Below are positions 1 to 2,544 of a stretch of 5,804 nucleotides of DNA, one piece after another; the first letter of the stretch is position 1, and every line of letters begins with the position of its first letter. Position numbers and translations under genes: made by a program. Origin of the DNA: Candidatus Latescibacterota bacterium (GTDB lineage Bacteria; JAAXHH01; JABIQT01); the NCBI GenBank assembly GCA_018667995.1, contig JABIQT010000992.1, positions 1 to 5,804 on the forward strand, given 5' to 3'. The notes below the pieces were generated by a model. The model saw only the letters and a list, made by a program, of their open reading frames with translations. It made no database searches and was not told where the DNA came from.

Positions 1-237
1 ATCCACGGAATCGGTCAAAGTGAAAGAACATGCCGAGTGCAGTTGTTCTTCACTGTCAACTTCCACCAGGCACAGGCGACAAGCACCTAAAGTGCGAAGA
101 CGGTCATTGCTGCAAAGTGTCGGAATGGACAGCCCAAAGTCCTTGGCGGCATCGAGAACAGTGGTCCCCGAGGCAACCTCCAATGGCTGGCCGTTCAGCG
201 TGATCGATACCATGTTAGTTGGGGCGGTTGTGGTCAT
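1..237 (-). CDS. N-terminal [2Fe-2S] domain of a NuoG/formate dehydrogenase alpha-type subunit (partial, runs off left edge)
   Basis: Reading leftward from the ATG at 237, 79 codons stay open to the window edge, so the C-terminus is missing. The visible part is a complete ferredoxin-like [2Fe-2S] domain: a beta-strand pair (VSITLNGQPLEVASGTTVL), a helix, then IPTLC and GACRLCLVEV, with four cysteines at residues 42, 53, 56 and 70 (C-x10-C-x2-C-x13-C). This is the N-terminal domain seen in NuoG, HoxU and the molybdopterin-containing alpha subunit of NAD-dependent formate dehydrogenases (FdsA), where it relays electrons between the catalytic centre and the flavoprotein subunit. It lies 35 bp behind the NuoF/FdsB-like gene on the same strand. 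A TGA two codons upstream in frame makes this ATG the first available one; the Shine-Dalgarno is weak (AAGTG). An Fds-type alpha subunit is favoured from the neighbour, but a NuoG-like or short HoxU-like protein cannot be excluded because the catalytic part lies outside the window. Confidence 0.85.
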   Translation of the reverse strand, partial: MTTTAPTNMVSITLNGQPLEVASGTTVLDAAKDFGLSIPTLCSNDRLRTLGACRLCLVEVDSEEQLHSACSFTLTDSVD

Positions 238-272: not shown

Positions 273-1874
273 TTACTGTTGGGCCGTCACCTGCTCACGA
301 ATCTCATTGCCAAAATGCTGTAGGGCTGTGGTGACGCCCGACGGCACTGCGTGGCCGTAACTGCACATGGAAGATGTTCGGACGTACTGGCTGAGCTGAT
401 CAAGAACGGCCAGATCGCCCGTCTGTCCTTCGGAGGTCCCAAGCTTGTCTCCTATCATGCGCGCTTGAGCCAGTCCCTCTCTACACGGCGTGCAGTAGCC
501 ACAGGATTCAGATGCCGCAAATCGCAAATGATCCTGCAGCCATGAAAGAATTGACGTCGACTGATCCAAAACGGTCACGAGACCCGTACCGGGCCATATA
601 GACAGCCATTTATAGGATTGCTGGGTCAGAGGCGTGTCCAGAAGATCCGGAGACAGAATCCCTCCCATCCGACCACCTATACAGATTGCCTTTATATCCC
701 GAGCATCCGTGCCGCCTATGCCGCAGACAAGATCGCGTAATGTGGTACCCACCTCTACCTCAACTACTCCGGCTACCGCCGTTCCTTCCAGCGTAAATAA
801 CCTTGTGGGTAGAGGGTCTTCCTGATCAGCATCGAATGGAATGGTCGTCACTCGTACGAATGTTTCGACATTCCCTACAATGGTCGGATACCCGTTGAGA
901 CCGGCGGCGACAGCCTCTGGCGACAGCGTGCGGGGCCCCGCTTTCCCCTCAAGAAAGGAAACCAGTGCCGACTCTTCGCCTGCGGCATATCCTACCGGAC
1001 CAGAGCGCACGGTCAAATCAAACTCGAATGCGCCGCCTCGGATATTAGATCCAAGTCGTCGGTGCCGGCGCGCCTCCGCTATCGCTGATTCCAAGCGCGC
1101 GCGGGCCAGACGATAAGATGGATTGACGACTATTATTCCTATACGTGCGCCCAGAGCATAAGCGGCGATGGCCATGCCTTCTATCAGGGCATGGGGATCG
1201 CCTTCCAGGAGATATCTATCCTTAACAGAGGCTTCATCTACTTCGAGCGCATTACAGATCAGACAGGTTTCTGTGGTCTGCTCCGCTGCCAACCCCCACT
1301 GTTCCATGATGGTCGAACCCTTGCCGCCGTGCCCGTGTAGTCCAGAGCTCTCTAAGGCTCCCATAACCTCATCCCGAGTGTGGCCCAGTGCGGCATCCTG
1401 TGATAGATAGCCGCCCGACCGCAAAACATCGTCGATTCGGGCAGGTACTATATATCCACAGCGATGCGAGACGACACGGCTCTGCCTCGAGAAGAACTCC
1501 ATATCTGACATGGTGGGCAGATTCGGGACCGGGGTGCGGGTCCCTGGAATCTGATAGATCGCCTGTTCACGATCTGGTTCACCAAAAACAAGGTGTTTAG
1601 ATAGGACATCGACTACTGTATCGGGATGTACATCACCATATACGATCTGAGACAGATCAGGTGAAGCGATTCGGACCATGGGATCGGCTGAGAATAGCCC
1701 GGTGGAACCAACTTCCCGGACCAGAATACCTTGAATATCCAGTTCATCGAGCGCCTTGGAAACAGCTTCCAGCAGCGGCCCGCCCTTTGAATTGGCCTCT
1801 GTATGACTGACCGTTACGACGCCTGCCGCACCGTCCGGGATACCATCATCTGTATGCAATTGATCCTTGATCAT
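273..1874 (-). CDS. NuoF/FdsB-like iron-sulfur flavoprotein-family subunit with degenerate FMN/NADH motifs
   Basis: This 533-residue protein belongs to the 51-kDa (NuoF) family that normally oxidises or reduces NAD(H) through FMN. Residues about 15-100 form a thioredoxin-like N-terminal region without cluster cysteines; the pattern GLFSADPMVRIASP...IVYGDV resembles the beta subunit (FdsB) of soluble formate dehydrogenases. The Rossmann-like core covers about 170-345, then a SLBB-like segment (about 355-430), then the helical [4Fe-4S] domain with C458, C461, C464 (ESCGYCTPCREG) and C504. The length fits FdsB, which ends after this domain. EGDPHALIEGMAIAAYALGA and GEESAL are well conserved. The FMN/NADH motifs are not: GRGGAGFP is GHGGKGST (181-188), the following lysine is Q192, NADE is NALE (208-211), and NNVET is GNVET (334-338). 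Nucleotide binding is therefore doubtful, although electron transfer through the cluster remains plausible. The ATG follows an AGAGAG-type ribosome site and sits 10 bp behind the CheW gene, suggesting one transcript. Confidence 0.9.
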   Translation of the reverse strand: MIKDQLHTDDGIPDGAAGVVTVSHTEANSKGGPLLEAVSKALDELDIQGILVREVGSTGLFSADPMVRIASPDLSQIVYGDVHPDTVVDVLSKHLVFGEPDREQAIYQIPGTRTPVPNLPTMSDMEFFSRQSRVVSHRCGYIVPARIDDVLRSGGYLSQDAALGHTRDEVMGALESSGLHGHGGKGSTIMEQWGLAAEQTTETCLICNALEVDEASVKDRYLLEGDPHALIEGMAIAAYALGARIGIIVVNPSYRLARARLESAIAEARRHRRLGSNIRGGAFEFDLTVRSGPVGYAAGEESALVSFLEGKAGPRTLSPEAVAAGLNGYPTIVGNVETFVRVTTIPFDADQEDPLPTRLFTLEGTAVAGVVEVEVGTTLRDLVCGIGGTDARDIKAICIGGRMGGILSPDLLDTPLTQQSYKWLSIWPGTGLVTVLDQSTSILSWLQDHLRFAASESCGYCTPCREGLAQARMIGDKLGTSEGQTGDLAVLDQLSQYVRTSSMCSYGHAVPSGVTTALQHFGNEIREQVTAQQ

Positions 1875-1884
1875 CTGAATCTCT

Positions 1885-2544
1885 CTACATCCGGGGAAAA
1901 TGGAAGGTCACAAGACGGTTGGCCACACTGAGAGGGATTCCAAATTTCTTAGCCGTCCGTCGGATTTCATCGGATGTCACGCCGCTCTGAAGGGCCCTAT
2001 TTACCGATGAGATTGCTACCAGGAAGTCTGATTCATTTGATCCGGTCTGTTCGACTGCTGGCAGACTGAATAACTCATTGATGTCCAAGACATCGTCCTC
2101 TGCAAGGATCTCATCCCAATCAAGAAGAAAGATCGTGTCTGCCTTGTCCGCAACGACTCCGACAATATACGATTGTCCCGCCTTCTCAATCGGCTTTATC
2201 TTGGCGTTTCTGACCAATTCCACCGTTGCGAACCTGTCAAGTACCAGACCAACCGTTCGACCAGATATTTCCGCCGTCAGTAATCGGGTTCCCTGGTCTC
2301 CTGACATCGTAGAAAACCCGAACTTTCGGCGTAGATCGACAACATGTATGGTAGAGTTGAGCGTTCCGCTTCCGGAGTCGTTTACCGACATCCTGCTGTC
2401 ATCAAGGACAGGACTAAGTACTATAGCCTCATAGGGCAAGCAGACTCGGATGTCTTCTACATCAAAGGTTACAACGTCCATACCATATTCCGAGAGATAT
2501 CTCCGAGAAGGTCTTTCTCGCGTTTCCGTGTGCGGGATGGTCAT
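1885..2544 (-). CDS. CheW-domain protein, first gene of the redox operon
   Basis: With the ATG at 2544 the protein has 219 residues. Residues about 22-150 fit a CheW (SH3-like beta-barrel) domain: VVTFDVEDIRVCLPYEAIV, IHVVDLRRKFGF, TRLLTAEISGRTVGLVLDRF, then YIVGVVADKADTIFLLDWDEIL. CheW domains join receptors to the CheA kinase in chemotaxis arrays and otherwise act as protein-docking modules; none of those partners is in the window. The loop that usually carries the conserved RG before PVVDLR is altered (DSGSGTLNSTI). About 48 further residues follow the domain, with a helical, helix-turn-helix-like look (TSDEIRRTAKKFGIPLSVAN). No signal peptide or membrane segment is seen, so it is probably cytosolic. 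Its stop lies 10 bp before the NuoF-like ATG. The start is uncertain: the frame is open to a TTG at 2619, and an ATG at 2481 would begin directly at the domain (198 residues). The ATG at 2544 is chosen as a compromise; its Shine-Dalgarno is poor. Confidence 0.87.
   Translation of the reverse strand: MTIPHTETRERPSRRYLSEYGMDVVTFDVEDIRVCLPYEAIVLSPVLDDSRMSVNDSGSGTLNSTIHVVDLRRKFGFSTMSGDQGTRLLTAEISGRTVGLVLDRFATVELVRNAKIKPIEKAGQSYIVGVVADKADTIFLLDWDEILAEDDVLDINELFSLPAVEQTGSNESDFLVAISSVNRALQSGVTSDEIRRTAKKFGIPLSVANRLVTFHFPRM

Follow-up and report, generated by a model that had tools for sequence, protein, structure and literature searches.

The operon described here probably encodes an iron-sulfur complex derived from HydABC that responds to redox state or to gases and is not a hydrogenase, and in which a hybrid of a CheW domain and a helical domain takes the place of HydC. 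This suggests that a signalling adaptor has been built by evolution into an iron-sulfur electron-transfer complex. CheW normally belongs to chemoreceptor arrays, and a link between CheW and hydrogenases was not found in literature searches.

Gene layout of the operon

The window, that is, the whole stretch of 5,804 nucleotides analysed, is an entire contig (G000:C247) from a draft genome of 6.06 Mb that is 85% complete. All three genes of the operon are on the minus strand. The first one (2544..1885) is an open reading frame of 219 amino acids with a CheW domain (Pfam E 4.6e-10, above the cut-off). It is followed, after a gap of 10 bp, by a NuoF/HydB-like gene (1874..273; 533 amino acids; Pfam Complex1_51K 1.7e-29 and NADH_4Fe-4S 2.5e-20) and, after 35 bp more, by a HydA-like gene (237..1), which is cut by the contig end and of which the N-terminal 79 amino acids, with a [2Fe-2S] domain (Fer2_4 1.3e-16), are present. 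The first-pass annotation of this DNA had already pointed out that the CheW gene lies 10 bp upstream of the NuoF-like gene and in line with a [2Fe-2S] subunit gene, and these matches confirm it. It had also called the operon formate dehydrogenase-like, which has to be corrected: in the orthologues the alpha subunit resembles that of an [FeFe] hydrogenase (HydA) and not FdsA or FdhA. Regarding the shared promoter that it proposed, a sigma-70-like candidate exists at 2659-2631 of the minus strand (TTGACA-17-TAGACT) and matches the consensus at 10 of 12 positions; sites of such quality occur three times in 1 kb against 0.8 expected. This consensus match is weak evidence of an operon promoter.

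An alternative start of the CheW gene at 2481 of the minus strand (MDVVTF...) would give a protein of 198 amino acids and may be the true one; both orthologues begin there. Related to this, an inverted repeat, CCGGTACATTTTACCGG, is found at 2552-2568, a few bases before the first start codon (2544); it could be an operator or a hairpin, or a hint that the real start is at 2481. The operon's neighbours in the window, encoded on the plus strand between 2716 and 5804, are a mandelate-racemase/enolase-type enzyme, a cupin and a methyltransferase.

Orthologous loci and distribution

When relatives were sought with the CheW protein of the window in 96 genomes, two full-length ones were found (genomes G013 and G001), belonging to other families of the same order. 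The gene order cheW, nuoF-like, hydA-like is repeated in both, where neighbouring genes are separated or overlap by no more than a dozen bases or so. Identity to the proteins of the window is 36% for CheW, 50-51% for the NuoF-like protein and 53-57% for the HydA fragment, and that all three genes recur together in two other families at such protein identities rules out a chance neighbourhood. Besides, differences among the trio genes of the three genomes are fewest at the second codon position, intermediate at the first and most frequent at the third, a pattern that points to purifying selection. The mandelate-racemase, cupin and methyltransferase genes also lie beside the operon in G001 (locus L023, 14414-16428; 74%, 77% and 60% identity, respectively); synteny of the region thus extends from one family to another.

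Two of the three loci contain, upstream of cheW, a gene encoding a REC-GAF-HisKA protein (L023, G001:C316, 12898-14178; L022, G013:C70, 18467-19999). In G001 a DUF169 gene (PF02596, 5.6e-56) is placed between it and cheW (L023 about 12105-12893; L004 2086-2874). In both loci the REC-GAF-HisKA protein stops right after HisKA and carries no HATPase domain; consequently it could not autophosphorylate alone and would depend on a partner in trans to act as a kinase. The remaining 13 genomes of the order gave no match to this protein, and neither did the 85% complete genome of the window, from which the kinase-like gene is either missing or left out of the assembly.

The distribution of the family was followed on a larger scale. 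A single-sequence scan with the NuoF-like protein over a GTDB-wide collection of 84,980 species gave no matches, and a profile scan of the GTDB contigs of these species gave 80 NuoF relatives, all of them at 37% identity or less and none with a CheW gene nearby within the flanks fetched. In a survey of 384 genomes, likewise, full-length relatives of CheW were not found outside the order. On present evidence the CheW-HydAB family is limited to one order.

Hybrid architecture of the CheW protein

A model of the CheW protein was obtained with AF2 from 18 sequences (pLDDT 82, pTM 0.67). An earlier model made from three sequences was poor (pLDDT 41), its helical tail excepted, and its Foldseek results were uninformative except for one NuoE-type row. 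Residues about 20-151 adopt the CheW fold in the later model, with a VIA-align Z of 12.4 to TtCheW (rmsd 2.8 over 127 residues) and a Foldseek value of 1.3e-7 for the same protein. However, residues typical of chemotaxis adaptors are lost. The NLRG position corresponds to a three-residue gap in all three CheW proteins, so that Arg62 and Gly63 of the E. coli protein have no counterpart, whereas 13 other aligned CheWs retain an (L/F)R pair there; the position of Glu38 also carries no Glu in any of the three. In E. coli CheW the NLRG hairpin (Arg62, Gly63) and Glu38 tune the coupling between the receptor and the kinase sites (PMC3828127).

At the C-terminus the three proteins are extended by about 60 residues, in which a three-helix domain of NuoE/HydC type is predicted (residues about 163-219; window bases about 1888-2058, minus strand). 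When residues 164-219 of the model were compared with known structures, most of the top VIA-align rows were NuoE/Nqo2/HydC-type chains (Z 5.2-6.4), and the matches to these chains always fell on their N-terminal helical domain; homeodomain folds score about as well as NuoE in this comparison. Sequence profiles point to the same domain. With hhalign, the tail was aligned to residues 27-71 in the N-terminal part of NuoE/HydC, the TFY motif included, with a probability of 91 and E 9.5e-7. The best of 200 column shuffles reached 18.8 against 37.5 for the real pair. Among other windows of real alignments a comparable score was given only by the thioredoxin-like part of NuoF, which is itself a NuoE relative. 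An independent profile test on 29 protein families, drawn from 80 loci, put NuoE/HydC at the top with 38.9, the second family reaching 18.1. Single-sequence matches of the tail to NuoE are weak, and a PDB sequence search with it gave only weak matches, one of them to a 24-kDa subunit (E 1.7).

An IclR-type helix-turn-helix was considered for the tail and rejected, its Pfam match (E 0.07) appearing in one sequence only. A generic helix-turn-helix is disfavoured, though less firmly, homeodomain folds being about level with NuoE in structure. The whole protein gives no Pfam match to PF01257, and what remains of it besides the tail is CheW, with no thioredoxin-like [2Fe-2S] domain. Judged by profiles and by the predicted structure, the protein is a hybrid consisting of a CheW fold with the N-terminal helical domain of NuoE/HydC at its C-terminus.

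The position of the gene is also informative. In 29 of 32 hydB-hydA loci, from many phyla, hydC lies just upstream of hydB, and two of the three loci where it is missing from that place are at contig ends. The gene for the hybrid occupies this hydC position in the CheW loci, which together with the helical domain makes the hybrid HydC-like, CheW standing where HydC has its thioredoxin-like [2Fe-2S] domain.

The NuoF-like and HydA-like subunits

The motifs of the NuoF-like proteins were compared with those of 56 HydB/NuoF relatives. LRGRGGAGFPTGxKW, NADEGDPGAF and RPPFP are replaced in all three proteins, and the cluster cysteines of the thioredoxin-like N-terminal part are lost in two of them, that of the window included. 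GEE, NVET and the four cysteines of the N3-type [4Fe-4S] cluster are kept. Since motifs of the NADH/FMN site are replaced, the usual mechanism of NADH oxidation is unlikely to operate; the FMN site, with GEE and NVET in place, may still bind flavin.

The best NCBIfam model for the third gene of the window is FeFe_hydrog_A6 (5.3e-18). Its complete counterparts in G013 and G001 match Fe_hyd_lg_C (1.3e-69 and 8.7e-64), which forms their C-terminal part, and a molybdopterin domain was not found in them. These two genomes, which are the CheW genomes with a complete gene, are the only ones with Fe_hyd_lg_C among the 16 of the order. Their scores with the NCBIfam group A6 model (554 and 536 bits) are below its cut-off of 765 bits. 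The orthologues retain the Fer2 cysteines, two [4Fe-4S] motifs and the four cysteines of the H-cluster (C300, C355, C499 and C503), while the cysteines of the His-ligated cluster are lost. Around the H-cluster site C299 is replaced by Ser, E279 and M353 by Thr and K358 by Gly or Ser, the altered motifs reading ISSCPAL and TPC. A Pfam scan showed no PAS domain, and there is no C-terminal Cx2Cx4Cx16C motif, no cysteine being present after the L3 motif.

The maturases were also searched for. No HydF above the family cut-off was detected in the 16 genomes of the order, and no HydG above its cut-off in the three CheW genomes. Some HydF matches below the cut-off were discarded as ordinary GTPases, covering the GTPase part only. 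The loss of these residues at the H-cluster site, together with the lack of HydF and HydG, makes it unlikely that the complex is a working hydrogenase; for the gene of the window, with 79 residues visible, this reading is taken from the orthologues. Another altered-site HydA-like protein was observed in a Bacteroidales contig (L076, WXFD01000043.1, 9846-11567; ITACPAW and SPCMAMK, with C299 replaced by Ala and K358 by Met), encoded in the normal hydC-hydB-hydA order with no CheW.

Proposed mechanism and alternative explanations

The proteins of the operon would form a complex derived from the NADH-dependent or bifurcating [FeFe] hydrogenase HydABC. The hybrid would replace HydC, bringing CheW and the NuoE/HydC helical docking domain and leaving out the thioredoxin-like [2Fe-2S] domain. 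In NuoEF and HydBC this helical domain docks on NuoF or HydB, and by analogy the helical tail may dock on the NuoF-like subunit, with the CheW barrel presumably sitting where the [2Fe-2S] domain of HydC would be. Such a complex would no longer turn over NADH and H2, and the CheW domain would act as the protein-protein output surface of a redox- or gas-responsive Fe-S assembly, with an output in the orthologues that is probably directed towards the upstream REC-GAF-HisKA protein. Sensing of redox state or gases is the best guess because CheW folds are protein-protein adaptors and a kinase-like gene lies upstream in the orthologous loci; redox sensing is plausible. The sensory reading has two loci behind it, since in the window no such gene lies beside cheW and none was detected in that genome. 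It is put forward tentatively, with chances somewhat below even, that CheW in the place of HydC creates a soluble redox sensor signalling to a split REC-GAF-HisKA kinase, with neither chemoreceptor nor CheA. If confirmed, CheW would prove usable outside chemotaxis, as a modular adaptor attached to an electron-transfer complex, and a testable route would lead from the redox state of Fe-S clusters to two-component signalling.

The main rival explanation is a catalytic oxidoreductase in which the CheW-helical protein would be a purely structural stand-in for HydC, closing off the surface of NuoF and having no part in signalling. Three strongly conserved subunits with many Fe-S ligands retained would fit it, as would the higher conservation of NuoF and HydA (50-56%) than of CheW (36%) and a kinase-like gene that is neither adjacent in the window nor found in its genome. 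On the other hand, the NADH-site motifs and the H-cluster surroundings are altered and no new active site is recognisable, the CheW fold is elsewhere a signalling adaptor, and REC-GAF-HisKA starts two of the three loci, all of which leaves this explanation with a minor, although real, share of the probability. A sensory [FeFe] hydrogenase of the HydS type (group C or D), detecting H2 and signalling through CheW, is improbable. The signalling genes nearby and the changes at C299 and M353, which recall group D HydS (PMC8163306), speak for it; nevertheless, HydF and HydG were not detected, K358 is lost too, the PAS domain and the C-terminal four-cysteine motif are absent from the orthologues, and the overall similarity is to the A6/HydABC type and not to groups C and D.

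The many cofactor-site residues lost could also be expected of a decaying remnant of a hydrogenase operon beside an unrelated CheW gene, but the frames are intact in three families, the codon-position pattern is that of purifying selection, the substitutions are shared rather than random, CheW and its helical domain are conserved and the gene order is the same, so that such decay is very improbable. Even less credible is a CheW that couples the redox enzyme to a chemosensory array of the ordinary kind. It has in its favour the CheW domain detected by Pfam. However, PF01584 (CheW) is found at one place in each of G000, G001 and G013, which is the operon gene, and the remaining 13 genomes of the order have none. 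Since a CheW domain is part of CheA too, the lack of a second one means that no CheA (P5) was detected. MCPsignal is absent from all 16 genomes (drafts, 83-99% complete), control genomes matching as expected, and the NLRG/Arg62 and Glu38 positions are lost (PMC3828127). The link to a signalling array raised in the first-pass annotation thus loses its partners, CheA and MCP. Its view that CheW belongs with the redox proteins is borne out by an operon kept in three families, with the sole CheW domain of each genome and no chemoreceptors, and its idea of a subunit or docking scaffold agrees with the HydC/NuoE-type helical domain and the hydC position. The recurrence across lineages that it proposed as a check extends to three families of one order and, in the scans, to nowhere else: the pairing goes beyond a single genome, but not beyond that order. 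The preferred reading remains a HydABC-derived complex with altered function.

Comparison with known systems

The CheW loci define a HydABC-derived family with altered catalytic sites. Among the closest known systems are the HydABC/HydAB NADH-dependent [FeFe] hydrogenases (group A3/A6; T. maritima 7p5h, 8a6t), which have the same hydC-hydB-hydA order and are similar in the HydB-like and HydA-like sequences, in most Fe-S ligands and in the helical domain of HydC. They differ in having the [2Fe-2S] thioredoxin domain of HydC where the loci described here have CheW; the proteins of the latter also lack C299, M353, K358 and the NADH-site motifs, their HydB-like protein has no C-terminal ferredoxin domain, and HydF and HydG were not detected. 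The NAD-dependent formate dehydrogenase FdsABG is distinguished by its molybdopterin catalytic domain, absent from the HydA-like orthologues. With the 24-kDa subunit NuoE/Nqo2/HydC (PF01257) the hybrid shares the three-helix domain ending in a TFY/TFH motif and the place in the operon, but it has no thioredoxin-like [2Fe-2S] domain and its helices are C-terminal, after CheW. Its resemblance to the CheW chemotaxis adaptor lies in the CheW fold; the NLRG hairpin and Glu38 are missing, a C-terminal helical domain is added, and the genomes have no detected receptors or CheA. Finally, the sensory hydrogenases HydS (groups C and D) differ from the HydA-like protein described here, which is of the multisubunit HydABC type, has no PAS domain, has lost K358 and is found where maturases were not detected. 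Group D HydS enzymes are reported to have lost C299 and to carry Ser or Thr instead of M353 (PMC8163306), and it is in the loss of C299, the change of M353 to Thr and the proposed sensory role that both systems are alike.
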